From: an uncultured Phycisphaerales bacterium
GTDB taxonomy: Bacteria > Planctomycetota > Phycisphaerae > Phycisphaerales > SM1A02
Assembly (NCBI GenBank): GCA_949373145.1
Contig: CASICI010000012.1
Span: forward strand, 1-64,000
Direction of reading: 5' to 3'
DNA length: 64,000 nucleotides
Position 1 is the stretch's first letter, and the number at the start of each line of letters is the position of its first letter. The notes beneath the pieces are model-generated. The model saw only the letters and a program-made list of their open reading frames with translations, made no database searches and was not told the DNA's origin. A program made the translations under genes and the position numbers. This document shows, piece by piece, positions 1 to 23,249 of the stretch.

Positions 1-2
1 AA

Positions 3-185
3 ATCTACAACCTTCAAGAAGACCCTCTTGAACTTCATAACAGAATCAATGACTCGGCGGTAAAAGATATACGCCTCGAACTTGAAGAGGACTACGACAA
101 TCTTGTGCTTGAGTGGCAGCAACACGCTATCGATCGTCCGCATTATAAGGCTGCCACGACTTTATTTTTTCGTAAGGGGCCCTAA
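3..185 (+). CDS. C-terminal fragment of a sulfatase (5' truncated by window edge)
   Basis: Open frame from the window edge translating IYNLQEDPLELHNRINDS...FFRKGP*; the YNLxxDPxE motif is typical of arylsulfatase C-termini. Confidence 0.6.
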   Translation: MYNLQEDPLELHNRINDSAVKDIRLELEEDYDNLVLEWQQHAIDRPHYKAATTLFFRKGP

Positions 186-188
186 TTA

Positions 189-1142
189 ATGAACCGTATG
201 TTCTTTGTCTGTTTCAGCCTAATTCATTCATTCATTCATGCTGAAATGCCTCAATTTGATAAGGGGCCACGACCTAAAAACTTTCAAGAGCTTCGTTTGT
301 ATTACGCAGACCGAGGCCTCAGTATTACACACAAGAAAATTGAACTGTCTCAAGATGTCCAACAAACAAATAATCTTGTCTACGCTCGACGGAAAGATCG
401 TCCACTTCATATTGACACCTTTGTTCCAAACAACCTGAACTCACTCAAAGCTGTTGTAATGCTCGTACACGGCGGTGGATGGAAAAAAGGTGATAGGTCA
501 AACGAGCACACGAAGGCGAAATGGTTCAGCAATCGAGGTTTCATAGTAGTCTGCCCTGAATATCGATTGTCAGGAGAGGCCTTGTTTCCAGCGGCAATAC
601 ACGACCTGAAAGACGCCATCTATTGGACACGAGAACATGCTTTAGAATGGGGAGGGCAACCCGATCGCATTATCTTGATGGGGTTTTCAGCTGGTGCTCA
701 TCTGGTTGCACTAGCCGCAACTGCTGGGCCTGAGGCAGGACTTGATATCTCAGAATCTCAGAAACAATCAAATTCTGTAGCTGCATGCATCGTTGTTGCT
801 GGCCCATCAATAACAAATGATGAACGAGCTTTTCTCGAAGCAAGGAAGCCGGAGTCAAACTATCAGTTATTTCTGGGCGATCTCCCAGAAAATATTCCAG
901 CTATCTACGAGAAGGCATCACCAGCTCATTGGGTATCTGGAAATGAGCCCCCAATGCTTTTCATTACCGAAGGCAACCCATCAGCACACAACACCATACG
1001 TTCGAAATTAGATAAACTGGGAATCCAGAATGAGATTTTCAACCTCACAGGTGGACTCCATAGTGAGTGGAACTGGGAACCTTGGTTTACTCCAACAATG
1101 GAAGTCACTGAGACTTTCATTCACTCCACAATCACTCATTGA
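189..1142 (+). CDS. Secreted alpha/beta hydrolase (esterase/lipase-like)
   Basis: Signal-peptide-like N-terminus, oxyanion motif HGGGW, nucleophile elbow GFSAGAH. Confidence 0.85.
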   Translation: MNRMFFVCFSLIHSFIHAEMPQFDKGPRPKNFQELRLYYADRGLSITHKKIELSQDVQQTNNLVYARRKDRPLHIDTFVPNNLNSLKAVVMLVHGGGWKKGDRSNEHTKAKWFSNRGFIVVCPEYRLSGEALFPAAIHDLKDAIYWTREHALEWGGQPDRIILMGFSAGAHLVALAATAGPEAGLDISESQKQSNSVAACIVVAGPSITNDERAFLEARKPESNYQLFLGDLPENIPAIYEKASPAHWVSGNEPPMLFITEGNPSAHNTIRSKLDKLGIQNEIFNLTGGLHSEWNWEPWFTPTMEVTETFIHSTITH

Positions 1143-1165
1143 TACGTATCGAATCCACTCATTGT

Positions 1166-3490
1166 TTATTGGCTTTGCGTATCATTTGATTGGATCGCCC
1201 CAAGGCCATGGGCCGTCTCCTTCATCACATGACAAACACCAGTCGAGACATCGTAGACCATTCCAATAATACCTACGTGACCGGCGTCAATGAGATTCCG
1301 AATTGCCTCGCTCTTCTGCACTATTTCATTCACAGATCGCTGAACGTTCTGCCTGACAACTATATCTGCCTCAACTACAGATTCGCTGCCCCTATTGTTA
1401 ACTGATTGCAGGCTCTTGCTCCTATTCTCACGAACGACTGACTCGAGACTTTTAATGATCGACTTGACATATTCGCACTTGTCGAGATCAGGGGCCTGCT
1501 TTTCCTGCATGAAATCAATAGCTGACTCAACCGCAACACAGCGGTTATGGCCAACGACAGCAATTAATTTCGAACCAGCACCAACGCAACCGAACTCAAT
1601 GCTGCCGAGTACTTCCGGCGTTACGATATTTCCCGCAACACGCACGCTAACAATATCACCGAGGCCAAGATCAAAGATAATTTCCGCGGGAATTCGTGAA
1701 TCAATATCACTTAGTACTACTGCCATTGGATGCTGGCTTGACGCAGTAGCTACTACCTGCCTACTAAAGTCTCGCTTAAGACGCCGTTCATTTCGAAATC
1801 GCTGATTGCCAGCGAGAAGGTATTTCAAAGCTTCCTCTGGCTTTATTCTCTCTTGTAATTCTTTACTTGAAAAGTCAACGAACGCGATCCGATCTTCGAT
1901 AGCGTACTTATCTCGAAAACCTCTTGTACTGACGTAAACTCCACGAGCAGGTCCAATAACATCACGATATTCTTTGATCAAAGACAAGATATCTGGATCA
2001 ATGTAAACAGTATCGTGTGCATCGACTAAAAGATGCTTGCCTGGCTCGATATTATCGAAAGTCTTTCGCAATGCTGCTCTGTTGAGAAAACTAACCTGAC
2101 TTGCCAGCTCAATTCTTGTGACGTCTTCCCCAAGATATTGATCCACTACCAATCGCATTGGCCTTCGAAGATTACTCCAAAGAATAAATATGATACTTAC
2201 AGCAAGTCCGATGAGGATTCCAATGAGTGGGTCGGTTAAAACTATTGCCAGCAGAGTCACGAACCATGGAATAAATTGATACCTACCAGCTCGCCAAAGT
2301 TCTGCTACAACCTGCGGACTCGCTAACTTGAGACCTGTGGCTATGAGAATCGCTGCGAGTGCAGATAACGGTATGAGATTAATAGCGCGAGGGAGCAGCA
2401 CAACTGATATCGCAAGAAGCGCTCCGTGTAATATTGCTGACTTTTTTGTCCGAGCTCCCGCGTCGATATTCACGCTTGATCGAACAATTTCACAGGTCAT
2501 AGGGAGTCCGCCCGCCATCCCTGAAACAATGTTTCCAATGCCTTGAGCCACAAGTTCTCGATTCGGCGATGTACTTCGCTTCTCTCGATCAAGCCGGTCA
2601 ACTGCCTCTAACGTCAGCAGTGCCTGTAATGATCCAACAATGGCAATCGCAAACGCTGCAGAGGAAACTGCCGGATTCATAAGCTGACTGAAATCTGGAT
2701 TCTGTAGTAAGCCAAAAAAACCGCGTATTGTCTCGGGAACAGGCACATTCACTTTATGAGTCGTACCTATAATCCAAGTTCCCCCAATGCGGTCAAAGCA
2801 AAGGCTACATACGACACCAAAAAGAACGACGACAAGTGGTGCAGGCACACTTGTTCTTTTCAGAAAAGCGATTCTGCCCCACAAGTAAATAATGGCCAAG
2901 GATGCAAAGCCAACAACAATAGAACCTGGGTGCAGGTCACCGAGAATTTCCAAGAGTTCTGAAAATGTGTTTTGTCGGTCTGGCTGAAAGAAAGACATCT
3001 CACCCTCAGGGTCTGTATCATGACCGAACAGGTGAGGAATCTGTTTCAGAATCAGTATGACTCCAATTGCAGAGAGTAATCCACGAACCACACTTGCTGG
3101 AACAAATGATTTGATAAACCCTCCCCTTAGAATCCCTAGCGCAATCTGTATCACTCCAGCAAGAGCTACCGCAACCAACAATCCTTCGAATGAACCAATT
3201 GCTGAAATCTCTGCTGCAACAACTGCGGTAAGACCAGCAGCTGGCCCAGAGATCGTGACTTGTGCGCCGCTCAGAGGGCCAACGATGAGACCAGCAACAA
3301 TACCAGCTACAACCCCAGCAAGTGGAGGAGCGTTTGACGCAAGTGCTATGCCAATACAAAGGGGCAGTGCGACGAGAAAAACTACAACACCAGCGAGTAC
3401 ATCATCCCAGACATTACTCACGTTATCGTTCTTCAGTGTGGCCGACCGAATATTTTCTTTCATCTGCACTCTAACCGTTACGAAATTCAC
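1166..3490 (-). CDS. SulP-family anion transporter with STAS domain and C-terminal beta-carbonic anhydrase domain
   Basis: N-terminal SulP core (ISGPAAGLTAVVAAEI), STAS-like segment, then beta-CA-like domain (LSDIDSRIPAE...GHNRCVAVESAI). Confidence 0.9.
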   Translation of the reverse strand: MNFVTVRVQMKENIRSATLKNDNVSNVWDDVLAGVVVFLVALPLCIGIALASNAPPLAGVVAGIVAGLIVGPLSGAQVTISGPAAGLTAVVAAEISAIGSFEGLLVAVALAGVIQIALGILRGGFIKSFVPASVVRGLLSAIGVILILKQIPHLFGHDTDPEGEMSFFQPDRQNTFSELLEILGDLHPGSIVVGFASLAIIYLWGRIAFLKRTSVPAPLVVVLFGVVCSLCFDRIGGTWIIGTTHKVNVPVPETIRGFFGLLQNPDFSQLMNPAVSSAAFAIAIVGSLQALLTLEAVDRLDREKRSTSPNRELVAQGIGNIVSGMAGGLPMTCEIVRSSVNIDAGARTKKSAILHGALLAISVVLLPRAINLIPLSALAAILIATGLKLASPQVVAELWRAGRYQFIPWFVTLLAIVLTDPLIGILIGLAVSIIFILWSNLRRPMRLVVDQYLGEDVTRIELASQVSFLNRAALRKTFDNIEPGKHLLVDAHDTVYIDPDILSLIKEYRDVIGPARGVYVSTRGFRDKYAIEDRIAFVDFSSKELQERIKPEEALKYLLAGNQRFRNERRLKRDFSRQVVATASSQHPMAVVLSDIDSRIPAEIIFDLGLGDIVSVRVAGNIVTPEVLGSIEFGCVGAGSKLIAVVGHNRCVAVESAIDFMQEKQAPDLDKCEYVKSIIKSLESVVRENRSKSLQSVNNRGSESVVEADIVVRQNVQRSVNEIVQKSEAIRNLIDAGHVGIIGMVYDVSTGVCHVMKETAHGLGAIQSNDTQSQ

Positions 3491-3705
3491 AAAAACCAGA
3501 AGACCAACAATGAGATTTCTGACTCATCGAAGAACAGTCACTTCTTGATAAGAACCTTCTAAACCTTATTTTCTATCCTGAACACCTTAATTTGGCCACT
3601 TTTCTTGTTTTCAGGAATTGGTGTTGGTTCAAAAATTGCTTGGTACAGAATCGTACGTAAAGTTAACACAGGAAGTAATGAATCACCGCAAAGACTGGAA
3701 CTTTT

Positions 3706-4311
3706 ATGACAAACTCACACGCACTTTCTGTTTCTCAAAGTATGGTTCGATTTGTAGTAATTTTACACCTAGTGCTATTGGTCTCCACACCAACTCGGGC
3801 CGACCAACAGAACACCACCGCTCTCGATCAGAATACTGTCTATAGACTTGACCTTTTCACCGAATCATTAAAACCGACTTTGAAAAAAGAACTTAAGCAG
3901 GGTGCCGTTTACTTCAGGTATTCATCAACATCCGGGCGTCATGTCTGGAGTCGCTTCAGTGAAGAAAAAGGATTCGAATTTGCAATGGGTCCAGAGTCTG
4001 TCCAACCAGCGTGGAAATTCGATATCCGCGAGGGGAGAGATGATCAATTACGCCTCCTCGAAAATCGCTCGCCAGAACTCTACAAACGCCTTACGGCACA
4101 AGGTGCCAGGCCCATGATAAAACTTTTAGAGAATGGACATTGGGAACTCGATGTAGCATCAAATGAGGGCCGAGTCTTTGATCTGGAAAGTGGTGAGCGT
4201 TGGGAGTGGCATGGCGGTCGTCAAATTCGTGTGGTCCACGCTGGAGGCATCCATTGGAAATACCGGGATCAAAATTATCAACCTGCATATAACGTTCTGG
4301 TCGCCTGGTAG
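3706..4311 (+). CDS. Hypothetical secreted protein
   Basis: 201-aa ORF with hydrophobic N-terminal signal-like segment; no family recognised. Confidence 0.6.
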   Translation: MTNSHALSVSQSMVRFVVILHLVLLVSTPTRADQQNTTALDQNTVYRLDLFTESLKPTLKKELKQGAVYFRYSSTSGRHVWSRFSEEKGFEFAMGPESVQPAWKFDIREGRDDQLRLLENRSPELYKRLTAQGARPMIKLLENGHWELDVASNEGRVFDLESGERWEWHGGRQIRVVHAGGIHWKYRDQNYQPAYNVLVAW

Positions 4312-4324
4312 TGCGCGACTGAAA

Positions 4325-5254
4325 TTATTTACTCTTTAAAATCATTGCAAACTGCGATTCCAACGCGACCGCTTGCCGCATTGTGGCTCTATGAATCTCC
4401 GTGATCGTCACAATGTCATTGCAGTACCCACCTCCACAGACAATCGCAACAGGCACACGATGCTGAAGTGCCGTTTTGAAGACAAGTGTGTCTCGTCGTC
4501 CAAGACCCTCTTGAGAGATATCAAGACGACCCAAACGATCTCCTATAAAAGGATCAGCCCCAGCAATATAAAAAATAAGTTGGGGCTGAAAATTTGAAAA
4601 GGCAATGCCCAAAGCTTTTTCAAGCTCACTGAGATATATTTCATCTGATGTACCATCGGCCAAAGGAACGTCTAATGAACTTGGATACTTTCGTAGTGGA
4701 AAATTCTTTGCTCCATGTATCGAAAGGGTATAGACCGTGTCATCATTTGCAAAAATTTCAGCTGTACCATTTCCTTGATGAACATCGCAGTCAATAACTA
4801 ATACATTGTGAACAAGCCCACGATCCTGTATCTCTCTTGCAGCTACTGCTATGTCATTGAAAACACAAAATCCTTCACCCCAGTTAGTCCCAGCGTGATG
4901 AGTGCCTCCGGCAAGACTTGCTGCGATACCATCTCGCAAGGCGGTGACTCCTGCGTCAACTGCTGCGCCCGTGCTCCGAAGTGATCGCTCAATAAGATCT
5001 TCACTCCACGGAAAACCGATACGCTGAATTTCTGCCTTAGTCAGTGTCCCACCAAAAACTCGACCCAAATACTGAGGACAGTGCACCCGGCGGAGTTCCT
5101 CGTCATTCGCTGCGTGTGGCTCTATAAACACAAATGGTTCACCGGCTTCTACATCCTCTTCAAGGCGGTGACGAAGTATCTGATACTTCTGAATCGGAAA
5201 TCGATGGCCCTCTGGCAATAAAAGGCGATATTTGTCACAGGGATAAAGCTGCAT
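4325..5254 (-). CDS. Histone deacetylase superfamily protein (AcuC/HDAC-like)
   Basis: GGTHHAGTNWGEGFCVFNDIAVAA, VLVIDCDVHQGNGTAEIF, YIAGADPF motifs. Confidence 0.92.
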   Translation of the reverse strand: MQLYPCDKYRLLLPEGHRFPIQKYQILRHRLEEDVEAGEPFVFIEPHAANDEELRRVHCPQYLGRVFGGTLTKAEIQRIGFPWSEDLIERSLRSTGAAVDAGVTALRDGIAASLAGGTHHAGTNWGEGFCVFNDIAVAAREIQDRGLVHNVLVIDCDVHQGNGTAEIFANDDTVYTLSIHGAKNFPLRKYPSSLDVPLADGTSDEIYLSELEKALGIAFSNFQPQLIFYIAGADPFIGDRLGRLDISQEGLGRRDTLVFKTALQHRVPVAIVCGGGYCNDIVTITEIHRATMRQAVALESQFAMILKSK

Positions 5255-5403
5255 GGACTAGAAACCACACGAAAGGAAAGTGCTCAATCTGGCAACACGA
5301 ACTGCTCAATTAACATGCGAAGAGGTACAGCGACTATTTTTCAATCAAGTGAGAACGTCATGTTTTATGAGTCTATATAAAACACCGTGACCTGAAAAAA
5401 CTT

Positions 5404-5419
5404 TGGCACGAATTGTGCA
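5404..5419 (+). promoter_or_regulatory. Candidate sigma54 (-24/-12) promoter
   Basis: TGGCACGaattGTGCA: GG-N10-GC spacing intact, one mismatch to the TTGC box. Confidence 0.4.
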
Positions 5420-5487
5420 CCTTATTGTGATTGAGATAATCAGAAACAGTGCCCCCTACTAGTACTGTTCTTCATTTTGAAAGGAGA

Positions 5488-5568
5488 ATGCCGGAAATTC
5501 TACAAGGTTGTTACGGAACGGATGAAACCAATTCCCAAACATTTGGAGATGCTCTGAATTACAACTAA
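5488..5568 (+). CDS. Candidate small ORF (26 aa: MPEILQGCYGTDETNSQTFGDALNYN)
   Basis: ATG directly after AAGGAGA (very short SD spacing); lies between the candidate sigma54 promoter and a strong terminator; absent from the supplied ORF track because of its length. Confidence 0.3.
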   Translation: MPEILQGCYGTDETNSQTFGDALNYN

Positions 5569-5576
5569 CAGGAGAT

Positions 5577-5613
5577 GGGGCTCGTATTGGCCACCAATAC
5601 GAGCCCCTTTTTT
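5577..5613 (+). terminator. Rho-independent terminator
   Basis: Perfect 14-bp stem GGGGCTCGTATTGG / CCAATACGAGCCCC with 3-nt loop, followed by T6 on the + strand. Confidence 0.85.
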
Positions 5614-5650
5614 CATCTGTCATTCAGTGGCGACGGGCACAGAATCAATG

Positions 5651-6316
5651 TTATTTGCTTTTAGCAGGCGTTGTCTTTCGACTCGTTTTTTTAAATCGAC
5701 GCATCACACTTGATTCCCTGCCAGTTTCACCATCAATAAGAACATCGATTTTTCCTGTCTCGACACGATAAAGCCAACCATGTAACCGAAGTGTCTTGCC
5801 TTTCTGAAACATATCACGAATCAGCGTTAGTTTTTTTAGGTGATTAAGCTGTACCCGCACATTTTCCATTGTGAGAAGCTCTAACTTCTCATCAGGGGAA
5901 AGCCGTTGTTTCTGAGCAATTTCGTCTGCTGCAGTCTTCGCCTCAGAGCCAACACAAAGCCAATCAGCGATGTAATTCTCTTTCACGCCATTCTCAAGAG
6001 CAGCAATACCACCACATCGTGTATGGCCACACACAATCACATCCTTGATTTTGAGATGCACCAGTGCATATTCCAAAAGTGCGGCAATTCCAACATCATT
6101 AAACGAGACCATATTCGCAATATTTCTGTGGACAAAAATGGTACCCGGGCGTGATCCCGTTATAATGTCTTCGCTCACTCTTGAATCAGCACATCCTATC
6201 CAAACCGCCCTTGGTGTCTGTTTAGCTGCTATCTTCGAATAATGGCTGGAATTAGGCTCAAATTCATCGCTAATAAACTTCTTGTTGCTTTCAAGCAGAC
6301 GGTCAATCATCGTCAA
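5651..6316 (-). CDS. Beta-carbonic anhydrase
   Basis: VWIGCADSRVSEDII and VCGHTRCGGIAAL zinc-ligand motifs. Confidence 0.95.
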   Translation of the reverse strand: MTMIDRLLESNKKFISDEFEPNSSHYSKIAAKQTPRAVWIGCADSRVSEDIITGSRPGTIFVHRNIANMVSFNDVGIAALLEYALVHLKIKDVIVCGHTRCGGIAALENGVKENYIADWLCVGSEAKTAADEIAQKQRLSPDEKLELLTMENVRVQLNHLKKLTLIRDMFQKGKTLRLHGWLYRVETGKIDVLIDGETGRESSVMRRFKKTSRKTTPAKSK

Positions 6317-6468
6317 TTCTCCAGAATAATGTGTTTAAAAGGGCTTTTATCAGAAACACTGCTATACGGTTTTGCAAACCAACACGACAAGTTTTCAATT
6401 AATCACCATAATAGTATGTAAAGAAATATCCGATAAATTTATTTTCCTCCTTATTCTCATCTGCCACC

Positions 6469-8262
6469 ATGAACCTTAGCTTTTGGATCGAAAACTGGCA
6501 GGCGATCCTGACCTCATTCGTGGTGGCAGCAACGCTGCTCGCACTGCTCTTAGGCCGCCGTGCTCCAGACATGGCGATGCTTGGTGCGGTTATCGTTTTG
6601 CTAGCAGCTGGAATTCTTAGCCCTGCTGAAGCACTTTCAGGAATGAGTAATCAAGGAATGCTCACGGTGGCAGCATTATTTGTTGTGGCAGCAGCAGTTC
6701 ATAGGACAGGAGCACTGTCACTGGTGATTGATCGAGGGCTTGGCCGACCACGCTCTCTTCATGAGGCCCAGATTCGGACAATGACAATACCCGCAGTCCT
6801 CTCAGGCTTTATGAACAACACCCCCGTGGTGGCATTAATGGTGCCGGCAGTACGAACATGGGCTCAAAAGCACCAACTCAGCATTTCAAAAATTTTAATG
6901 CCTATGAATGCTGCTGTGGTGCTTGGTGGACTTTGCACACTCATTGGTACGAGCACCAATGTTGTCGTGAGTGGCTTACTGAATGCAAAAACGGGGCAAT
7001 CTCTTGGCATGTTTGATATTACGTGGCTCGGCGTGCCTCTTTTGATTGTTGGCTTTGCTTACATTCTTACTGCCAGTAAAAGCCAGTGGCTATTAAAAGA
7101 CCGTAAACCAGCCGTGAGTGCTGGTGATGATCCCCGAGAATACTCCCTCGAGATGGTTGTTGAATCTCGTAGCCCTCTTGCCGGTAGGACAATTGAACAA
7201 GCTGGTCTTCGTGGACTGCATGGACTGTTTCTTATGGAAATTGATCGTGCTGGTCATGTACGCACGGCAGTGGAACCGACCGAACGACTGGAAGAAGGTG
7301 ATCGACTTGTTTTTGTAGGTATTGTCGATTCCGTCGTGGAATTACAAAAAATACGAGGACTTCGGCCAGCGACTGAACAAGTCTTCCAATTGGATGGGCC
7401 GCGATCTGAGCGTACTCTTGTAGAAGCTGTTGTTTCAAATACATGCCCGCTTGTTGGCCGAACAATCCGAGAGGGTCAGTTTCGATCAACATACGATGCC
7501 GTGATTATTGCAGTGGCAAGAAACGGAGAACGTTTAAGAAAAAAGATTGGTGACATTGTTCTTCAACCTGGCGACACACTACTTTTAGAAGCCAGCCCCC
7601 GGTTCCTAAAAAGACAGAAGACCAGTCGTGATTTCTATCTAGTAAGTGAAGTCCGTGGAGCAAAGCCGCCACGACACGACCTTGCGTGGATTGCATGCAC
7701 AATTTTGGCAGCGATGGTTCTTGCTGCCACACTCGAGCTTGTGCCTATAGTTGCAGCCGCACTTGTCGCAGCGGCGGCGATGGTTGCGACAGGATGCATC
7801 GGCCCAAATGAAGCAAGAAGATCTATCGAATGGGAAACCCTCCTCCTTATCGCGGCTAGTTTCGGACTTGCAAGAGCTATCGAGAAAACAGGTTTAGACG
7901 AACTCATTGCGCAGAGTACTATCGGGGCTGCAGGTGACCGACCTCATCTTGTGCTCGCAGCGATATATTTAGTCACCATGCTTTTTACTGAAACAATGAG
8001 TAACAATGCTGCGGCTGTACTTATCTTTCCAATCGCCTGGCAAACTGCGACCGATCTTGGGCTCAACCCGATGCCGTTTATCATGGCAATTACGGTGGCA
8101 GCTAGTTGTGGGTTTGCGAGCCCTCTCGGCTATCAGACAAATCTAATGATTTATGGTCCGGGTGGGTACAAGTTCAGCGATTACCTACGTTTCGGCGGCC
8201 CACTCAACTTGATAGTGATGGCCATCACTATTTTACTGGCACCGTTGATCTGGCCGTTCTAG
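6469..8262 (+). CDS. SLC13/DASS-family permease with TrkA-C-like domains
   Basis: GFMNNTPVVALMVP, GTSTNVVVSGL, two RCK_C/TrkA-C-like soluble segments, FTETMSNNAAAVLIFP, ASPLGYQTNLMIYGPGGYKFSDYLRFGGPL. Confidence 0.9.
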   Translation: MNLSFWIENWQAILTSFVVAATLLALLLGRRAPDMAMLGAVIVLLAAGILSPAEALSGMSNQGMLTVAALFVVAAAVHRTGALSLVIDRGLGRPRSLHEAQIRTMTIPAVLSGFMNNTPVVALMVPAVRTWAQKHQLSISKILMPMNAAVVLGGLCTLIGTSTNVVVSGLLNAKTGQSLGMFDITWLGVPLLIVGFAYILTASKSQWLLKDRKPAVSAGDDPREYSLEMVVESRSPLAGRTIEQAGLRGLHGLFLMEIDRAGHVRTAVEPTERLEEGDRLVFVGIVDSVVELQKIRGLRPATEQVFQLDGPRSERTLVEAVVSNTCPLVGRTIREGQFRSTYDAVIIAVARNGERLRKKIGDIVLQPGDTLLLEASPRFLKRQKTSRDFYLVSEVRGAKPPRHDLAWIACTILAAMVLAATLELVPIVAAALVAAAAMVATGCIGPNEARRSIEWETLLLIAASFGLARAIEKTGLDELIAQSTIGAAGDRPHLVLAAIYLVTMLFTETMSNNAAAVLIFPIAWQTATDLGLNPMPFIMAITVAASCGFASPLGYQTNLMIYGPGGYKFSDYLRFGGPLNLIVMAITILLAPLIWPF

Positions 8263-8580
8263 GTATCGAATCCGTCTCTCAGGCACAACAAAAGCAGTCT
8301 ATTTCTACAGTCGAATGACGCTTCGTAGCTCAAACTATTCAACGTCACGGTTGTCGCAATTGGAGATCACATATAACCACGACGATTACGATTTCAGTTT
8401 GAAATTGTGCTCACTAGTCCAAAAAAACTCCGGGGAATCGTTACGATCGACCTAAACCATCTTCGATTACTCGTTTGTTTCAGAATAAGGCCTTTCGTTC
8501 CTTTCTTGCCGATGGCCAGCAACGTACTCTAGTAGGTTGCAATCGGCCTTTATACTAGACCCTTCATCCTCCTGAGCCGG

Positions 8581-9453
8581 ATGAGCGAAATACTCTTTCA
8601 TTATTACCGTGTTAATCCAACGACCTGGTTTTACCTCGCGTCGATTCTTTTGATTGCAGTTTTTTTTAAATTCAATCGTGCGATGAGTATTCGCAATATT
8701 GATCTGGTCGGTTTGATCCTCTTTGCGCCAGGTCTTTTAGCCGTCGAATACGGTGGTTTCAAAGCCAACGTCGACGCACAGCAACTTGGCTATATTTGGC
8801 TATTTGTTATCACCGGAATATTTATAATCCGCATGCTCTGTGATTCACTTATGGTCCGAAGGCCTATGCTTGAACCAAATCTCAATAGTGGCGGATTGGT
8901 CTTCCTCGGAGTATCTCTCCTCGTTTTTCTTCTCGCCAATGTTCTCACCACCCGACCAGAAAGAGACGACCTTGCAGCGGCCACAACCGCAGCAAAACTC
9001 GAGACAGGTGAAGCCGAAGTTGATATTGATCAGCTAGCCAGAACTGGACCTGGGTATCCTCTTCTTTTTCTTCTGCCACATATTTCAACACAGCGTGTTT
9101 TCTCCTCTGATAGCACTTCCGCAGTGCGTAGCGATACAAACGAACCGCCTCCACGGATTGTTCATGAAACAACAGCACGAGTGATGGCCATCATTTCTCA
9201 ATTGCTTATTGTGAGTGGAATACTTTTTGTAGGATGGCGGCACTTTGAAAATATAAAACTTGGTATCGCTGCTGCCGTTCTCTATTTACTGCTTCCGTAT
9301 ACAGCCATGATGACTGGAAGGGTCGACCATGCATTGCCTGGTGCGTTAATTGTCTGGGCAATCGGAGCATACCGCAGGCCTGTAATAGCAGGCGGCCTCA
9401 TCGGACTTGCGATTGGAATAATTTATTACCCTGTTTTTCTCCTTCCCTTGTAG
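8581..9453 (+). CDS. Multi-pass membrane protein, 3' truncated at a chimeric junction
   Basis: Multiple hydrophobic helices; the frame stops exactly where base composition changes and a different gene begins mid-ORF. Confidence 0.6.
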   Translation: MSEILFHYYRVNPTTWFYLASILLIAVFFKFNRAMSIRNIDLVGLILFAPGLLAVEYGGFKANVDAQQLGYIWLFVITGIFIIRMLCDSLMVRRPMLEPNLNSGGLVFLGVSLLVFLLANVLTTRPERDDLAAATTAAKLETGEAEVDIDQLARTGPGYPLLFLLPHISTQRVFSSDSTSAVRSDTNEPPPRIVHETTARVMAIISQLLIVSGILFVGWRHFENIKLGIAAAVLYLLLPYTAMMTGRVDHALPGALIVWAIGAYRRPVIAGGLIGLAIGIIYYPVFLLPL

Positions 9454-9458
9454 AGCCA

Positions 9459-9779
9459 ATGAAAATTGATAACTTAGCGAAACAACTTGCTAGGCTTTCA
9501 GGGCTTACTCCAGGCAAAGATATAAAAATAATTTATACAGGCTTAAGAATTGGAGAAAAACTTCATGAAAAGCTTTTTCATAAGGATGAAAAAAAAATTA
9601 CTACAAAGCATCCAGACATATTAATAGCAAAGTCTAGAGAATTAAACTTTTTACAAATAGATGGCGTTATAAATAAAATGAATGATTTTTTAATTAAAAA
9701 TAAAGAGAAAGAAGCAATCAATCAGCTTATAAAGCTAGTGCCAGAGTTTTCGATTGATCCCAAAAATAAAATTTATTAA
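9459..9779 (+). CDS. C-terminal fragment of a CapD/PglF-like nucleoside-diphosphate-sugar epimerase/dehydratase (5' truncated)
   Basis: EPMKIDNLAKQLARLSGLTPGKDIKIIYTGLRIGEKLHEKLF matches the CapD C-terminal pattern; homology starts at GAGCCA just before the annotated ATG. Confidence 0.8.
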   Translation: MKIDNLAKQLARLSGLTPGKDIKIIYTGLRIGEKLHEKLFHKDEKKITTKHPDILIAKSRELNFLQIDGVINKMNDFLIKNKEKEAINQLIKLVPEFSIDPKNKIY

Positions 9780-9788
9780 GGAGCCTAG

Positions 9789-11312
9789 ATGTCATCTGAT
9801 TTCATTCCTATTAAACGAGCATTAATATCGCTATCTGATAAAACTAATATTGAAATAATAGTAAGTATAATTAAAAAATATAATATTGAAGTACTTTCTA
9901 CTGGTGGAACAGCAAAATTACTTAGGAGGCATGATATCAATGTAAAAGATGTTTCAGATTATACCGATTTTCCAGAGATGTTAGATGGGAGAGTAAAAAC
10001 ACTGCACCCTAAAATACATGGTGGCTTATTAGGAAGATACAATTTATCAACTCATAAAAGCGAGATGAAAAAAAATAATATTGACCCTATAAACTTGGTA
10101 ATAGTCAATTTATATCCTTTTTCAGATGCTGTTAAAAACAATCTAAATTTTGATGAATGTATTGAAAATATTGATATAGGGGGGCCCTCTATGATTAGGT
10201 CTGCCGCAAAAAATCATGAGAATGTTTGCATTATTACTAATCCCGATGACTATGAAGGCTTCCAAAAAATTTTAGATAAAAATAATTGCTCTACAACTCT
10301 GGAGGATAGAAAATTATATGCAGCAAAAGCTTTTGCTAAAACAGCCTATTACGATAGTTTAATTTCTGAATGGTTTAATAAGGAAGTAAATATTAAATGG
10401 CCTGAGACTATAACTATTGCAGGAAAATTATCTAATGAATTAAGGTATGGTGAAAACCCTCATCAAGAATCTGCTGTTTATAAAAACCCTAATCACAAAT
10501 TAAATGGGATTGTTAAATCTAAATTGCTCCAAGGTAAAAAATTGTCCTATAATAACCTTAATGACTCTGATGCTGCATACGAATTAATTAAAGAATTTGT
10601 AGATCCTACTATAGCTATTATAAAGCATGCTAATCCGTGTGGAATAGCTTCTAATAAAATAATTGTAGAAGCTTGGAAAGATGCATTAAGAACAGATCCT
10701 CAAAGTGCCTTTGGAGGAATAGTTGCATGTAATAGAGAGATTACAGAAGAACTGGCAAACAATATGAATAAAATATTTTTAGAAGTAATTATAGCGCCTG
10801 CATTTTCTGCAGAGGCAATAAAAATATTCTCTTCAAAAAAAAATCTTAGGCTCTTAAAAACAAATGCAACAGATAATGAAACGGTCATAGAGCATAGAAT
10901 TGTGAAAGACTTATATGATGGTTTTTTAATGCAAGATAGGGATTTAGAAACATTAAATATAGACCATTTAAATGTTGTAACAATTAAAAAGCCTAATAAA
11001 AAAGAATATAGAGACTTAATATTTGCATTTAAAGTAGCGAAGCACGTTAAATCTAATGCTATAATTTATGCAAAGAATAATGCTACAGTAGGTATAGGAG
11101 CAGGCCAAATGAGCAGGATTGACTCGTCACAAATCGCTACTATCAAGTCTCAAAATGCCTCTAAATTAGCTGGGTTAGATAAAAGTATGGCCGAAGGTTC
11201 TGTTGTAGCATCCGACGCATTTTTTCCCTTTGCAGATGGCCTAATAGCAGCAGCAGAGGCTGGTGTCACATCCATAATTCAGCCTGGTGGCTCTATAAGT
11301 ACTCTGCGTTGA
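9789..11312 (+). CDS. purH: Bifunctional AICAR transformylase/IMP cyclohydrolase, 3' truncated by adaptor
   Basis: RALISLSDKTNIEIIV, STGGTAKLL, LDGRVKTLHPKIHGGLL, FGGIVACNREIT, ASDAFFPFADGL, GVTSIIQPGGSI; last residues STLR come from primer sequence. Confidence 0.95.
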   Translation: MSSDFIPIKRALISLSDKTNIEIIVSIIKKYNIEVLSTGGTAKLLRRHDINVKDVSDYTDFPEMLDGRVKTLHPKIHGGLLGRYNLSTHKSEMKKNNIDPINLVIVNLYPFSDAVKNNLNFDECIENIDIGGPSMIRSAAKNHENVCIITNPDDYEGFQKILDKNNCSTTLEDRKLYAAKAFAKTAYYDSLISEWFNKEVNIKWPETITIAGKLSNELRYGENPHQESAVYKNPNHKLNGIVKSKLLQGKKLSYNNLNDSDAAYELIKEFVDPTIAIIKHANPCGIASNKIIVEAWKDALRTDPQSAFGGIVACNREITEELANNMNKIFLEVIIAPAFSAEAIKIFSSKKNLRLLKTNATDNETVIEHRIVKDLYDGFLMQDRDLETLNIDHLNVVTIKKPNKKEYRDLIFAFKVAKHVKSNAIIYAKNNATVGIGAGQMSRIDSSQIATIKSQNASKLAGLDKSMAEGSVVASDAFFPFADGLIAAAEAGVTSIIQPGGSISTLR

Positions 11313-11348
11313 TACCACTGCTTAAGCAGTGGTATCAACGCAGAGTAC
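11299..11348. repeat. Perfect 50-bp palindrome: two head-to-head SMART/SMARTer PCR primer copies (synthetic adaptor)
   Basis: 11324-11348 = AAGCAGTGGTATCAACGCAGAGTAC; 11299-11323 is its exact reverse complement. Confidence 0.97.
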
Positions 11349-11495
11349 TATGAAGCCTTGTATCGATCGTTCGAACTCGAACCGAACGAACCGACGATCC
11401 GTCAGCAACTCGTGGACATTCTGAACGCGGAAGGACGTGTTCGAGAGGCCGAAGCGGTTTCAAGAGGCGAGATGCCCGAATCAAGATCGCAATGA
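11349..11495 (+). CDS. C-terminal fragment of a protein, possibly TPR-like, truncated at adaptor
   Basis: Open frame from the adaptor: YEALYRSFELEPNEPTIRQQLVDILNAEGRVREAEAVSRGEMPESRSQ*. Confidence 0.5.
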   Translation, partial: YEALYRSFELEPNEPTIRQQLVDILNAEGRVREAEAVSRGEMPESRSQ

Positions 11496-11502
11496 AGGCG
11501 AG

Positions 11503-13023
11503 TCAGCCCTGCAGCATCTCGAGGAGCTTCGCCTGAACCGCCTTGGCGTCCGCGGATCCTCTGGCCGATTTCATGACGTGACCGGTGAGACGGCCAAGAG
11601 CGGCGACCTTGCCGCCTCGGACGTCATCCGCGGCCTGTTCGTTGGCTTCGATGGCCGAGGCACACCATGCTTCAAGCTGGGAGTCATCAAGCACGACGAG
11701 GAGACCTGCCTGCTCGGCGATCTCGCGGGCGGTAGCGTCGGACGTTTCGAGGAGCGTCAACAAGGCATCGATCGACTGTGCGCCCAGTTCATTCAATCGA
11801 CGCAACTCGAGGACGCCGGCAAGCTGTTGAGGGCTGGTGCCAAGACGCGATGGCGGAAGTCCTGCTTCGTTGGAACGTTTGGCGACCTGGTTGAGGATCA
11901 ATTTCGAGACCGCGGCAGAATCCCCGGCACAGGCGGATTCCATGGCGACCTGCTCGAAGTAGATGGCGGTGTCGGGTTCCTCAAGGAGGGCGTCGGCATC
12001 CGCAGGACGCACTCCGAGAGTCTCGATGTACCGCACCCGCTTGGCTGCTGGAAGTTCGGTCAGTCTCGCACGGACGGTCTCCAACCAGGCCTCGTCCACG
12101 ATGACCGGAACGAGATCCGGATCGGGGAAATAACGGTAGTCGTGAGCGTCCTCTTTTTCGCGCTGAAGGACGGTGACGAGTTTTTCATCATCCCAACCAC
12201 GAGTCGCCTTGGCGCCGGGCCCCATCACACGACCATCCTGCCTCCAGGCGATCTCCTGACGGTCGTATTCATGTTCGATGGCCCCGCGGACGGCTCTGAA
12301 TGAATTGAGATTCTTGACCTCGACGATGGGCGTGCAGATCGTGCGACCGTCCTCGAGGTCCATCTCGAGGTTGATGTTGGGCTCGAAACGCATGTGCCCG
12401 CGCTGCATGACGCCCTGAGTCACACCAAGAAATCGACAAAGCTGCCGCAGGTCCTGGCCGAAGGTCACGACATCCTGGGCATCATCGAAGTCGGGATGGG
12501 TGACGATCTCCAGAAGAGGCGTACCGGCTCGGTTCAGATCCACGAGAGACCCTTGAAAGCGCCCCCCACCGGGCAGCTCATGGCCCAGTTTTCCGGTGTC
12601 TTCTTCAAGATGCGCACGAACGATCCCGATGCGTCGATCCTCACCCGAAGAGGCCCGGATCATGAACTGGCCGTCATGGCACAGAGGCAGATCGTACTGC
12701 GAGATCTGATAGCCCTTGGGAAGATCCGGGTAGTAGTAGTTCTTTCGATCCCACTTGGAAAAGCGCGCGATCTCGCATTCGAGTGCGAGACCGACCAACA
12801 TCGACATCTCGACCGCTGCACGGTTCATCACCGGCAGAGTGCCCGGGAGTGCGGCGACCACGGGATCGACCAACGTGTTTGGTGCGCTGTTCTCGAAATC
12901 AGGATGAGCGACGTTCGGTGTTCGCGTGAACATCTTGGAACGAGTCTGCAACTCGACGTGGATCTCGAGGCCGACCTTCAGTCGCTTCGAGATGATCTTC
13001 GACTCGGACGAGGTGTCGTTCAT
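11503..13023 (-). CDS. gatB: Aspartyl/glutamyl-tRNA amidotransferase subunit B
   Basis: LKVGLEIHVELQTRSKMFT, KNYYYPDLPKGYQISQYDLPL, DYRYFPDPDLVPV. Confidence 0.97.
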   Translation of the reverse strand: MNDTSSESKIISKRLKVGLEIHVELQTRSKMFTRTPNVAHPDFENSAPNTLVDPVVAALPGTLPVMNRAAVEMSMLVGLALECEIARFSKWDRKNYYYPDLPKGYQISQYDLPLCHDGQFMIRASSGEDRRIGIVRAHLEEDTGKLGHELPGGGRFQGSLVDLNRAGTPLLEIVTHPDFDDAQDVVTFGQDLRQLCRFLGVTQGVMQRGHMRFEPNINLEMDLEDGRTICTPIVEVKNLNSFRAVRGAIEHEYDRQEIAWRQDGRVMGPGAKATRGWDDEKLVTVLQREKEDAHDYRYFPDPDLVPVIVDEAWLETVRARLTELPAAKRVRYIETLGVRPADADALLEEPDTAIYFEQVAMESACAGDSAAVSKLILNQVAKRSNEAGLPPSRLGTSPQQLAGVLELRRLNELGAQSIDALLTLLETSDATAREIAEQAGLLVVLDDSQLEAWCASAIEANEQAADDVRGGKVAALGRLTGHVMKSARGSADAKAVQAKLLEMLQG

Positions 13024-13041
13024 GATCAGGTTTCGAACGTC

Positions 13042-13578
13042 CTATTCGGCGACTTCGACCACCGATGCGGTCACCATGGCTGGGGCATCACCGACCGGAG
13101 CACCGGAGTTGGGGTCGACCTGAACGGCGGCGATCTTCTCGACCACGTCCATGCCTTCGATCACCTTGCCGAAGCCCGTGTACTGGTTGTCCAGATGCTG
13201 GCAGTGGTCTCTGGTGAGGCAGATGAAGAACTGCGAGCTCGCGGAATCAGGATCCGCGGAGCGAGCCATCGACAGAACACCGGGATGATGTTCACGATCG
13301 TTGAACTCTGCCTTGAGTCGGCGAGGTCCATCACCGGTGCCGTTGCCCTTGGGGCATCCGCCCTGGATCACGAAACCGGGAATGATTCGGTGGAAGGTCA
13401 GACCATCGTAGAACCCGTCTCGAGCGAGCGAGAGGAAGTTGTCGACGTGATTCGGGGCGACATCGTCCCAGAGTTCGACGGTGATCGGGCCATGTGATGT
13501 TTCGATATTGACTGTGGGGTAGCTCATGCGATCAGGGTAGCGCAGAAGCGGCTTCCCTGCCTCATCGAGGCTCGTCAA
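13042..13578 (-). CDS. Peptidyl-prolyl cis-trans isomerase (cyclophilin type)
   Basis: NFLSLARDGFYDGLTFHRIIPGFVIQGGCPKGNGTGDGP, SQFFICL. Confidence 0.95.
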   Translation of the reverse strand: MTSLDEAGKPLLRYPDRMSYPTVNIETSHGPITVELWDDVAPNHVDNFLSLARDGFYDGLTFHRIIPGFVIQGGCPKGNGTGDGPRRLKAEFNDREHHPGVLSMARSADPDSASSQFFICLTRDHCQHLDNQYTGFGKVIEGMDVVEKIAAVQVDPNSGAPVGDAPAMVTASVVEVAE

Positions 13579-13865
13579 CGTTGAATATTCGACGACGACG
13601 AGGTGGGTCGCCAGCGCGTGGGCAGGAGATAGTTCCGGCCTTGGTACCGAGTGATCTCACCACTGAGCAGGATTGATTCAGGAAGATCGCTCTGAGCGGC
13701 TCGCCTTTGAAGCTTCTCCAGGAGCAGGCAGGGAAGAATCTCCATCGTGGGATCGCGCTGATCGGCCGCTTCGGACGAGAAGAGAATGCGCCAGGTCCCA
13801 GATCTCTGATCGCGCAGAATCGAACATCGCCTGTTCTGAATTCGATCCCCTTCCGCCATCGTCAT
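13575..13865 (-). CDS. Hypothetical protein with NYLLPT motif
   Basis: 96-aa ORF; start overlaps the upstream ORF stop (ATGA); shares G-x-W...YxGxNYLLPT with the upstream ORF. Confidence 0.55.
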   Translation of the reverse strand: MTMAEGDRIQNRRCSILRDQRSGTWRILFSSEAADQRDPTMEILPCLLLEKLQRRAAQSDLPESILLSGEITRYQGRNYLLPTRWRPTSSSSNIQR

Positions 13866-17091: not shown

Positions 17092-19575
17092 TCAGCCGAT
17101 GTTCGACGAATCGATGCCGATGTTCTCATCGAAGATGCGACGTGAACGACGAAGTCTGGCGTAGACGCCGCCTCCAAGAAGACCGATGACGACGACCGAA
17201 CCACCGAACGCCAGTCCCGCGGTCTGGAACTGTCCCGATGTGACTGGAACGGGATCGTTGACCACGAGGCGACCATCGGAGGTCACGATGTCGACTCTTG
17301 CGCCATCACCCCGACGCGCGAGCTGGCGCTGCGATTCCGAGGAGAGCGTGGTGACGACGCTTTCCAGAAGACGTTGCGTCTCAAGAGGCGAGCTTCCGTT
17401 GAGTCGGATCTGGAGCATTCCAGGCTCGACCTCGGTGACGACCATGTTGTCACCGAGCAACGCGGACGATGCCGCGACGGAATACGCGCCACCAAGCGAT
17501 GCGCTCTGGAATCGGTTGAAGACGGACTTGACGAAGAGTTCATCCGAAAGAAGTGCCTTGTGCCATTCATTCCAGGATGCCGCGGTCGAATCATCGAGAG
17601 CACCGCCGGTGATCGGGTGCGCGCGAACGAGGGCGGTCGAAGCGACCGTGCCCGGTGCGAACCAACGCGTTCCGAACCAGCATGCCGTGGCGATGACCAC
17701 GAGAAAAAGCGAAATCTTGACCACAGTACCGGCGGTGGTGTGACAGGCCCAGCGACGCATCATTCGTGATTCAAGCTCGGTCATTTCGTGACGACGACGC
17801 ACCATGTCCTCCTGTTCGACTCGAATGAGCCGTTCGGATTCGATGGAGGAACCGGTGCTTCCGCCGGGAGCGTCGGATCGGTCGGCGAGAAGACGACGCA
17901 TCTCTCGGAGACGAACCCGTCGAAGTTGAAGATGTGATGCGAAGGCTGAAAGGCGCTTGGCCTGATCCCGGAGAATCTGAGCATCGGACGAGACGTCACC
18001 CGGCTCGACGTTCGGTCTGGATTCGAGTTCTTCATTGCGCATCTGCAACTCGCAGAGATGACGGTCCTTCTCCGTGATTTGTTCTTCACAGGACCGAGCG
18101 TGCGTTTCGAGCGTCTCGATCTCACAACGAGCTTCATCAAGCTGTTCGAGAAGCTGTGCGTCCTCATCGGTCGAACTTCGTTCCGAGACCTGCTCGAGAC
18201 GTTCGTTCAAGGTCTTGACCATGGACTCGTGCTCGGCCAGCGACACGCAGGATTCGAGTTCCGCTCTGAGTCGAGCAAGCTCTTCCTGAGATTGCAGAAG
18301 CTCCTCGGAGTCGAAGTCGCCCTGAGGTGCGGGAGCATGGTTCAGTTGGTCGTGAGCCTCTTCCAGATCACGACTCAACGTCACCATGCGTTCTTCAAGT
18401 TCACGACATCGCGAGATGGCGATGGCCCCCTCATCGAACTGCGATGCCTGGTCCGAGACTGCCTGGGCAAGCGCCTGCAATCGATCCATGGCGAGTTCGA
18501 GATTGGCCTTGATCTCATCACGTTCCTTGATCGCGGACATGGCGGATCGAGCGGAGTCATCGAGTTCCGACCGACAAGACTGCAGTTCGCTGGTGATCTC
18601 GAGATGTTCCGATTCGAGTTTCTCGATGACGCCTGCAGCGGATTCCAGCTCGGCGGCGAGTTCCAACGTGCCCGACTTCAATGATTCGGATTCCGCCTTG
18701 AACGACTCCACTCGAGAATTCGATTCCTCGAGGCTGCTGTCCATCTCCTCACGAAGACGGTCCGCCTGCTCTGCGAACGACGCACGAATCGATTCGGTGT
18801 CGGCCACGGACTGCCGTGCGGATTCAAGTTCGGCGACCAGCTCGAGCGAGCTCGTCTTCAATGATTCAGCTTCGGCCTTGAACGACTCGGCTCGAGAGTT
18901 GGATTCCTCGAGGGTGCTGTTCATCTGCTCGTGCTGCCGACGAAGACCGTCCGCCTGCTCCTCGAGAGATGCGCGGATGGATTCGGTGTCGGCCACGGCC
19001 TGACGTGCGGATTCGAGTTCCGCCTTGAGTTGATCGGCTTCGATTCCAAAATCGACGCGAGCATTTTCAAGCTCCGCCCTCTCACCGGAAAGTCGTCCTC
19101 GTTCGAGCACGATTTCGGTCTTGTCCTCTTCGAATCGTGCACGAAGATCCGTGATCTCCTGCTCGCGACGGATCATGTCACCGGAATCGGATTCAAGCGC
19201 ACTGCGCATGATTTCCAACGACTCATCACGCTCGATGCACTGATTTTCACGTTTGACGAGATCTTCAAGCCGGCTGGTCAATTCGAGTTCGAGTGTTTCC
19301 AGTCGCTTGGATTCTTCGCAAATGGACTGCTCACGTCGGCTGAGATCCTCGCGACGAGACTCAAGCGTCTGGATCTCACTGGATCGATTCACCTGAGCGC
19401 TCTTCATCTTCTCGAGTTGGTCCTCGACCGAGGCGATGAGATTCATGACATCATTGGTGGAATTCTGACTCCCATCACCTGAAGTCTCCTCAGGAGACCG
19501 TGCAGAGTCAGAGACCTGGCTCTGATCGGATTCGGGGAGGGTTTCATTGAATTCAGGGCGTGTTGGCTCGGTCAT
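17092..19575 (-). CDS. Large coiled-coil membrane protein with C-terminal Wzz/chain-length-determinant-like region
   Basis: Start chosen at MTEPTRPEFNE; long Glu/Ser/Leu-rich heptads followed by two TM segments flanking a Wzz-like region. Confidence 0.65.
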   Translation of the reverse strand: MTEPTRPEFNETLPESDQSQVSDSARSPEETSGDGSQNSTNDVMNLIASVEDQLEKMKSAQVNRSSEIQTLESRREDLSRREQSICEESKRLETLELELTSRLEDLVKRENQCIERDESLEIMRSALESDSGDMIRREQEITDLRARFEEDKTEIVLERGRLSGERAELENARVDFGIEADQLKAELESARQAVADTESIRASLEEQADGLRRQHEQMNSTLEESNSRAESFKAEAESLKTSSLELVAELESARQSVADTESIRASFAEQADRLREEMDSSLEESNSRVESFKAESESLKSGTLELAAELESAAGVIEKLESEHLEITSELQSCRSELDDSARSAMSAIKERDEIKANLELAMDRLQALAQAVSDQASQFDEGAIAISRCRELEERMVTLSRDLEEAHDQLNHAPAPQGDFDSEELLQSQEELARLRAELESCVSLAEHESMVKTLNERLEQVSERSSTDEDAQLLEQLDEARCEIETLETHARSCEEQITEKDRHLCELQMRNEELESRPNVEPGDVSSDAQILRDQAKRLSAFASHLQLRRVRLREMRRLLADRSDAPGGSTGSSIESERLIRVEQEDMVRRRHEMTELESRMMRRWACHTTAGTVVKISLFLVVIATACWFGTRWFAPGTVASTALVRAHPITGGALDDSTAASWNEWHKALLSDELFVKSVFNRFQSASLGGAYSVAASSALLGDNMVVTEVEPGMLQIRLNGSSPLETQRLLESVVTTLSSESQRQLARRGDGARVDIVTSDGRLVVNDPVPVTSGQFQTAGLAFGGSVVVIGLLGGGVYARLRRSRRIFDENIGIDSSNIG

Positions 19576-19832: not shown

Positions 19833-21152
19833 ATGAGCATGCTCCATTTCGAACCAGCGACCAGCCCCGCGGCACTCCCGACTCCGAGCGATCCTCGAAT
19901 GGTGGAGATCGTCGATCGAGTGCTTGCCGGCGAACGACTCTCGGCCGAAGAAGGCCTCGTTCTCTACGAGACACCTGACGTCCACCTGGTATGCGGCCTT
20001 GCCGACATCGTTCGCAGCGGCTTCACGGAGATGTCGCCTGGTACAACGTCAACCGACACATCAACTACTCCAACATCTGCGCCCTGAGCTGCAGCTTCTG
20101 TGCCTTTCATCGGAAGAAAGGCAGGACGGGGCCTACGAGTATTCACTCGAACAGGTCAAGCGAGGAAGCGCTCAAGGCGGAGCCGCGGTGCGACCGAACT
20201 GCACATCGTGGGTGGACTCCACCCTCGACTTCCGTTCGAGTACTACACGAACATGCTTGAGCACGATCAGGGAGTGCGCACCGAGATTGCACATCAAGGC
20301 CTTCACGGCGGTCGAGATCGTCCATCTGCAGAAGATCTCCAAGCGTGGCAGAATGAAGTACGAAGGGATCGTCGAGGTTCTCAAGGACCTGAAGGAAGCG
20401 GGCCTGCAGTCACTCCCCGGAGGTGGCGCGGAGGTCTTCGACGACCGGGTGCACGACAAGGTCTTCAAGACCAAGATCAAATCCGATCAGTGGCTCGACG
20501 TTCACAAGGCCGCTCATGAAATCGGCCTGAATTCGAACGCCACGATGCTCTACGGTCACGTCGAGGAACGGCCCGAACGAATTCATCACATGGAACTGCT
20601 CAGCGGTCAGCAGGATCGGACCCTCGAAGGACTGGGCACTCGGCTGCAGGGGATTACCGACACCGGCCCCGGCGAAGTCGTCCTCACGTGGCCCCGATCA
20701 GCACTATCCTGCCAGGAGCGGACTGCCGATGCCGGGCCAGGAACGGCCTCTCCACGGGCTATTTCCAGACGATCATTCCGCTTCCGTTCTTTCCCGAACG
20801 AAGAGTGCGCTGGAGCATCTCCCCGGCCCCGCCGGACTAGAGAACCTGCGGACCATCGCGGTCTGCAAGACTCATGCTCGACAACATCCCCCACGTGAAG
20901 GCGTTCTGGATCATGCAGACGCTCGACATGGCCCAGCTCATGCTCCAGAACGGAGCCGACGACATCGACGGCACCGTCGTCTGGTACGACATCACCCACG
21001 TCGACGGGGCCTCCACCCACCAGGAGACCACCGTCACCGACCTTCAGCGATCGATCGTGAAGCCGGGTTTCGAGCCTCGCGAACGTGACACGCTCTACCG
21101 GGTCGTTGAACGGGACGGAAGCGACTGGACGACGAACGACTCGAGGTCATGA
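19833..21152 (+). pseudogene. mqnE: Aminofutalosine synthase (radical SAM), disrupted by several frameshifts
   Basis: Pieces in three frames: [147 protein letters not shown]. Confidence 0.9.
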
Positions 21153-22788
21153 CCTCACGAAGCGCTCGCCGAGCAACCAACCGAATTCGGGGATTCGAAG
21201 CCACCAAGCCACCGCCAGAAACGGAATCGCTCCTCCTGGGACGAGAACCAGCAACACGATGAACTGGTTGAAGCAGTGAAGTGTTCTCGGCGAACGATCC
21301 CAGAAGCCAGTGAAGGCTCGTGCAGGATGCGAGCACCAGACCACCCGAGCAGACATGCGTCCTCAGAGAGACTCCGCCGCAGGGCTGGTATCGAACAGGC
21401 TGCCCGTGCGCACGGAGAGCAGGCGGGACAGGATCAGAACCTGGACCACCGCGCAGAAGGCCGTGCTCCAGGCGAGCCCCGCCACTTCAAGCGGAGTCCA
21501 GATGAGAATCAGATTCAAGGTCAGATTCACAAAGACCAGCCCCACCGCCACCTTGACCGCCGTCATCGCCTCTCACCGCGCGCGTAGAACGCTCGAACGA
21601 GCACGTGGGTGGCACAGTACGCCCACAGGGCGGAGGCGTACCCGAGGAGGATGAAAGCCGGTTCGAGCCGTGTCGGCCGCGGTGAACGCATCACCCTGGA
21701 AGACCACGGCGACCAGAGGGCGATGCACCATCAGGAGACCGATCGTCGCGGGAAGGCCGATGAAGAAGGAAAGGCGGATGCCACGCTTCAGGGTCGCATT
21801 GAAACTTTCGCGGTCATCCCGTTCCCGAGAGAGCTGCGGAAAGATCGCGGTCGCGATCGCGATGCCGAACACCCCCAGAGGAAATTCATAGAGTCGCGCC
21901 GCGTAACTCAGAGCCGCCATCGAACCCTCTTTCAGCGGGTACGCGACATCGGTAAACGGCACCGTCGGACCGACGAGCGTGGGCCAGCTCGCGATGAGTC
22001 CATCCAGCAGGGTGTTCAACTGAAGAACACCAAGTCCGAGCGCCATCGGCAGTCCGGCACGGATGACCTCTGAAGGAGGTGGCACGGGCGACGGCGCGAT
22101 CCGCAACGCCCGGTGGAGAGGGAAGAGCCCGCAGGGCACGCCATGACCAGAACACCTGGATCATTCCCGCCAACAAGAGGCTGGCCGCGACCCAGCTGAT
22201 CTGAGCTTCACTGGTCAATCGACCCGAGGACACCAGCGGCAGGAGAAGCAGGGTCGACGCGACGAAGAACAGATTCATGATGATCGGTGCGGCGGCGGTC
22301 GGACCGAAGCGGCCATGTGCCTGGAGCATCGCACCCATCAGAGCCACGAGACACACCATGGGTGCGTACGGCAGCATGATGGCCAGAAGCCGAAGGCCCT
22401 GAGCCTCGCGGAGCCCGTCGAGAACGCCGAAGAGAAGGAGCATCTCGATGAGCAGAACGATGCCCGAAAGCAGCATGATCGAACGTCCGACCAGCAGGCG
22501 TGCCATCAAGGCCGCCGTCGCGGGATCGTCATCGGAGAGGCGAGTGTATTCGGGAAGGAACGCGGCACTGAGCACACCCTCACCGAAGAGACGGCGAAAG
22601 AGATTCGGCACCTGGAAACCGAAAGCAAAGGCATCCATGAGAGGGCTGATTCCAAAGACCCGACTCATGGTGGCGTCACGAAGCAGGCCACCCATGCGAC
22701 TCACCACCGTCAAGCCGGTGACCGTGCGGGCATGTTTCTCGAAACCAGACGGATTGGACGACATGAGACCTCGAGGCGTGGAAATCAA
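21150..22788 (-). pseudogene. murJ: Lipid II flippase MurJ, disrupted by frameshifts
   Basis: GLTVVSRMGGLLRDATMSRVFG...NLFRRLFGEGVLSAAFLPEY in one ORF, then AALSYAARLYEFPLGVFGIAIATAIFPQLSRERDD and further TM pieces in other frames. Confidence 0.9.
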
Positions 22789-23249
22789 TCGGAGGAGGAC
22801 TTCGAATCATCTCTCGAGGGGGGCGTTCCATCGTCCGCAGCCTGTTCCGCGAGGGACACCTTGTAGACGGCCCGCGACATGGAAGGCTCGAGCTGGTCGG
22901 CGTCGAGAATCACGAGCACACGGCGATCCTCCTTGGAGTACACCATTTCTGATCGCGGGAACAACCAGGTCGACCGTTCGGTGGCCCAGCCGTAGCTCGT
23001 GAATTTCGAATCGATCGATTCCACCATCTCGTCCATGCGGAGAATGGGACCGACGAAGATGAATCGTCCACCGACGAGTTCACCCTGCCGACGCTTGATC
23101 TCGTACCCGAGCCTCTGCTCCATGTCGGGAACGGTCGGGATGTCGGAGGCGAGGACCACATCGGGCTGCGAACTGCATCCGGTTCCGAGGAGGGCGAGGC
23201 TCAGCAGAGCCAGGACCGACACGATGTGAGGAAGTGGTGATCGGGTCAT
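22785..23249 (-). CDS. Hypothetical lipoprotein
   Basis: Lipobox-like LLGTGCSSQ; 154 aa. Confidence 0.6.
   Translation of the reverse strand: MTRSPLPHIVSVLALLSLALLGTGCSSQPDVVLASDIPTVPDMEQRLGYEIKRRQGELVGGRFIFVGPILRMDEMVESIDSKFTSYGWATERSTWLFPRSEMVYSKEDRRVLVILDADQLEPSMSRAVYKVSLAEQAADDGTPPSRDDSKSSSD

Follow-up and report, generated by a model that had tools for sequence, protein, structure and literature searches.

PacBio amplification adapters are a known contamination of HiFi assemblies. The ultra-low-input protocol starts with shearing and repair of the DNA, followed by ligation of the amplification adapter and PCR; a second repair and the ligation of hairpin adapters come afterward (PMC10565955). 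The adapter sequence associated with SMRTbell gDNA Sample Amplification (ultra-low input), AAGCAGTGGTATCAACGCAGAGTACT, is exactly the 26-mer that was removed as adapter contamination from PacBio HiFi genomic-DNA reads (PMC12613986), and adapters of this kind are removed by trimming with lima or SMRT Link. Its 25-nt core is that of the Clontech/Takara SMART PCR primer, and in the excerpts of the literature considered here the 26-mer appears mainly in cDNA and single-cell work. Here, we describe a genome in which the identical 26-mer, i.e., the same adapter, is found in the interior of a contig.

The analyzed window, i.e., the whole stretch of 64,000 nucleotides, corresponds to bases 1 to 64000 of contig C12 (111,385 bases) in a genome of 2.10 Mb with 42 contigs and 75.5% completeness. 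A preliminary description had reported a perfect 50-bp palindrome, composed of a 25-mer and its exact reverse complement at 11299 to 11348, and had interpreted it as a SMART/SMARTer primer dimer in a chimeric contig. The sequence check agrees at every base, with 11324 to 11348 being exactly AAGCAGTGGTATCAACGCAGAGTAC and 11299 to 11323 its exact reverse complement. The palindrome is indeed perfect, and its 26-nt arms are 100% complementary with no spacer, but it extends one base further in both directions (52 bp). It reads AGTACTCTGCGTTGATACCACTGCTT/AAGCAGTGGTATCAACGCAGAGTACT, i.e., one 26-mer twice, so that two full adapters abut by their 5' ends. Each copy is identical to the 26-nt adapter over its entire length and consists of the SMART primer sequence (25-nt core) plus a terminal T. 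With up to three mismatches allowed, these two copies were the only adapter matches in the window; 100 shuffles of the window yielded none, and no partial adapter was seen at base 1 of the contig. The palindrome is a laboratory artifact and no biological feature, and it most likely derives from the adapter used in PacBio amplification of genomic DNA rather than from a SMART cDNA library. Features at and around the palindrome are compiled in Table 1.

Table 1. Features at the two junctions and in their flanks (positions in the window)
Feature	Position	Strand	Remarks
Foreign segment A, GC 46%	1-9450	none	No same-genus or same-family DNA match; ends in truncated gene 8581-9453
Second chimeric junction, adapter-free	9445-9460 (approximate, about 9450-9456)	none	GC step, two cut genes
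Polysacc_synt_2 polysaccharide biosynthesis gene, 3' remnant, AT-rich source	9459-9779	+	Lacks ~233 N-terminal profile positions
Foreign segment B, GC 31%, another source organism	9460-11297	none	Composition far outside host chunks; purH duplicated elsewhere in the genome
Foreign purH, truncated	9789-11312	+	Profile homology stops at 484/510; terminal STLR and stop adapter-coded
Palindrome, 52 bp, perfect	11298-11349	none	Two head-to-head 26-nt PacBio gDNA amplification adapters (SMART primer core plus T)
Terminal adapter copy of left amplicon	11298-11323	-	Sequence match
Terminal adapter copy of right amplicon	11324-11349	+	Sequence match
4Fe-4S/TPR protein gene, host 3' remnant	11352-11495	+	Cut at adapter; 547-aa open frames in congeners
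Gene presumed to be gatB-like, first intact host gene past the junction	11503-13023	-	Collinear in congeners

When 84,980 species genomes (257 Gb) were scanned for exact matches, the 26-mer was present in only 10 stretches (L005 to L014), all of which belong to FRAM MAGs with the titles FRAM18, FRAM_RAS_EGC1617, and FRAM_WSC20. The stretches fall in nine MAGs, each a species representative, and the carriers comprise bacteria and archaea (Verrucomicrobiota, SAR324, Flavobacteriaceae, Vicinamibacterales, Alphaproteobacteria, and Poseidoniales). Nine of the 10 harbor the head-to-head pair, in L006 with one extra central base; the remaining stretch, L013, has a single adapter copy. Several show strong GC steps at the adapter (e.g., from 0.277 to 0.680 in L010), and the FRAM contigs carrying the adapter are probably chimeric, too. 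According to the accessible parts of the project texts, the three FRAM projects combined PacBio ultra-low-input libraries with metaFlye assembly, and adapter removal is mentioned in these parts for Illumina reads only. The genome studied here presumably originates from these Fram Strait data as well.

In IMG/VR, the 25-mer core was detected in 116 stretches, all from a handful of libraries. It starts at contig base 1 in 112 of them, and a T follows the core in 110 of these 112 cases, a pattern that an untrimmed adapter ending in T would produce. The 52-mer palindrome is present in one contig (L061). Another viral contig, L087, has two same-orientation adapter copies near its end. At the sensitivity used, searches of 50,697 phage records and 72,556 plasmid records did not detect the adapter sequence, and the congener genomes lack it, too. 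Its occurrence is restricted to particular libraries whatever the organism, as seen for the FRAM stretches (10/10) and the handful of IMG/VR libraries. Since the sequence is, among the species genomes, confined to one set of projects, yet shared by bacteria and archaea, it is not a natural element.

The right flank of the palindrome is host DNA. The region from 11350 to 13600 showed a DNA match to all four congeners (73 to 84% identity), and in the two closest congeners this match begins at 11352, directly past the adapter. In both of these loci, the open frame (547 amino acids) runs on upstream as a 4Fe-4S/TPR protein, of which the window keeps the last 47 residues. The missing upstream part of the gene had no match elsewhere in the bin in a search run without an internal positive control, and the true neighbor of the 11352 end therefore probably lies in an assembly gap. 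Over flanks of 500 bases, GC content rises from 0.348 on the left of the palindrome to 0.606 on its right. This bears out the earlier remark that the right side is GC-rich and begins mid-ORF, the cut gene being the one that continues upstream in the congeners.

Further features were observed within the host segment. A strong AT skew (0.24 to 0.30) was seen at 21001 to 24000 and 39001 to 40000 compared to the rest of the segment. Direct repeats of 113 and 84 nt, 82 to 85% identical and with a spacing of 180 to 189, are located at 18638 to 19023, probably within one gene.

The left flank is foreign to the host. Tetranucleotide comparison across the junction, as proposed in the preliminary description, placed the left side far outside the host range: segment A had a distance of 0.058 from the host (maximum among equal-length host chunks, 0.022) and segment B a distance of 0.120 (maximum, 0.039). 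For positions 1 to 9400, none of 12 same-genus or same-family genomes gave a DNA match, and same-order genomes gave a few short matches of 64 to 72% identity. The best match for a transporter of segment A (59%) was in a genome that shares the host's phylum but belongs to a different class, a similarity that is no more than suggestive as to the source. For segment B, a search of 398 genomes from the phylum of an alphaproteobacterial FRAM MAG yielded no close source, the best purH identity being 53 to 55%. The translation of this purH gene confirmed that its frame reads into primer-encoded STLR, after which a stop follows; intact homologs run past the GGS motif to ...RHFRH instead. The purH alignment rests on rows L016 and L039, while other rows, in the wrong frame, were disregarded. 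Another purH with 43% identity is present on contig C14 of the same genome. Flanks from different genomes thus meet at the adapter, with a cut gene on either side, and the genes to its left and right are, as stated before, not valid neighbors.

A second junction, missed in the preliminary description, was found near 9450. Here, GC content falls from 0.48 to 0.28 (500-base flanks), and the adapter is absent. The frame to the left comprises 290 residues, and a homolog with an open frame of 466 amino acids matches up to query residue 290 and then continues; on the other side, the Polysacc_synt_2 remnant covers profile positions 234 to 292 only. Because two genes are cut at one point, the left 11.3 kb is itself chimeric, and the window holds three source segments, A, B, and the host segment C. 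This junction may be due to template switching or ligation before amplification. We consider it highly improbable that the foreign organism itself underwent a genuine rearrangement or transfer at this point and that the junction is not a second laboratory chimera.

About 11.3 kb of the 111-kb contig is foreign. The same palindrome is present in contig C5 of this genome at bases 10 to 59, with only 9 bases before it. All 12 junctions (10 in FRAM stretches plus those of C12 and C5) are located no more than 11.3 kb from a contig end; with uniform placement, the probability of this is ~1e-7 for a distance cutoff taken from the data. As all junctions are near contig ends, their location fits one chimeric long read overhanging the end of a contig.

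Adapter identity, library confinement, cut genes, and the foreign left flank all support the earlier claim of a synthetic adapter in a contig that is chimeric at this site. Almost certainly, the palindrome is an untrimmed library adapter, and two adapter-tailed amplicons were ligated end to end, joining foreign DNA to the end of a host contig. After shearing, the environmental DNA would have undergone end repair and A-tailing, the 26-nt linear adapter would have been ligated to it, and long-range PCR would have followed; every amplicon would start with the 26-mer. A foreign-ended amplicon (A plus B) and a host planctomycete-like amplicon (C) would then have been joined by ligation at the outer ends of their adapters, most likely at the hairpin-adapter step after PCR. 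The product would have been sequenced as a single long HiFi read with the adapter retained, and the assembler would have followed this chimeric read beyond the true end of the host contig. Abutting 5' ends of the primers are as given by end-to-end ligation of two finished amplicons. We infer that the joining step was a ligation after PCR; joining before PCR appears less likely, since the PCR primers would also start from the sites inside the joined product, which would thereby be lost. The join was presumably carried by one chimeric read. Two observations count against this account. Published ultra-low-input HiFi data contain few chimeric reads, at most 0.81% (PMC11809032), although such a low rate leaves room for occasional chimeras at the ends of contigs. 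Furthermore, the junction near 9450 carries no adapter and, against a single ligation, needs another joining event.

There is a slim chance that the join was made in silico by an assembler that overlapped reads with untrimmed adapter at their ends; untrimmed adapter is common at contig ends of other assemblies. However, judging from the sequences, a read ending in ...CCACTGCTT and a read starting with AAGCAGTGG... have no shared overlap, and overlap of identical adapter ends would produce one copy, not two abutting ones. Long-read assemblers also require far longer overlaps, which counts against such a join.

As for the earlier interpretation as a SMART/SMARTer primer dimer, the SMART core stands, as the 25-mer is the SMART primer sequence, but an origin from an RNA or single-cell cDNA library is very unlikely, and end-to-end ligation of adapter-tailed genomic amplicons is preferred. 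The inserts are genomic, as they contain intergenic regions and genes in both orientations, and the terminal T of both copies is the one expected of adapters ligated to A-tailed DNA. Moreover, according to the accessible project texts, the projects with matches relied on PacBio ultra-low libraries of genomic DNA, and a true dimer is a tiny molecule that forms no bridge between two long inserts.

That A, B, and C share one contig and were binned together could also reflect recent acquisition of positions 1 to 11297 by the host, the adapter alone being artifactual. This is exceedingly unlikely: an adapter is impossible inside a real chromosome, both neighboring genes are cut exactly at it, and segment B duplicates an essential gene (purH) found elsewhere in the genome. 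In addition, A differs from B, both differ from the host, and A and B are joined through two truncated genes; a congener with A or B beside the 4Fe-4S/TPR gene was looked for, and none was found. Finally, a genuine genomic palindrome (terminator, origin, or mobile-element end) matching the SMART primer by chance has virtually no probability, since the perfect inverted repeat, although able to fold as a hairpin, is identical over 26 nt to a synthetic oligonucleotide, is conserved neither in relatives nor in unrelated data sets (being absent from congeners, phages, and plasmids), interrupts two genes at once, and occurs in unrelated bacteria and archaea, yet in one group's assemblies only, a library confinement that refutes this reading.

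Compared to the preliminary description, our reading of an end-to-end ligation of adapter-tailed amplicons corrects the library type and the mode of joining and adds the second junction and other affected public genomes. In this genome, inference of gene neighborhood, gene transfer, or copy number is invalid across 9450 and 11298 to 11349, and none of the genes at positions 1 to 11297, including the extra purH, is the host's. The 26-mer provides a cheap screen that points to nine other public Fram Strait MAGs and, by its 25-mer core, to 116 viral-contig stretches. Flagged sites allow the adapter to be trimmed or masked and the contigs to be inspected for chimeras; otherwise, this is a data-cleaning matter only.

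With respect to the known systems, the Clontech/Takara SMART PCR primer serves cDNA, whereas the copies described here have genomic flanks and the T of T/A ligation. The adapter palindromes of the Fram Strait MAGs (L005 to L012 and L014) have the same head-to-head layout near contig ends but lie in other genomes and between other flanks. Unlike ordinary PacBio adapter contamination, the adapter copy described here is internal and doubled head to head, and it is thus the mark of a chimera, beyond an untrimmed read end.
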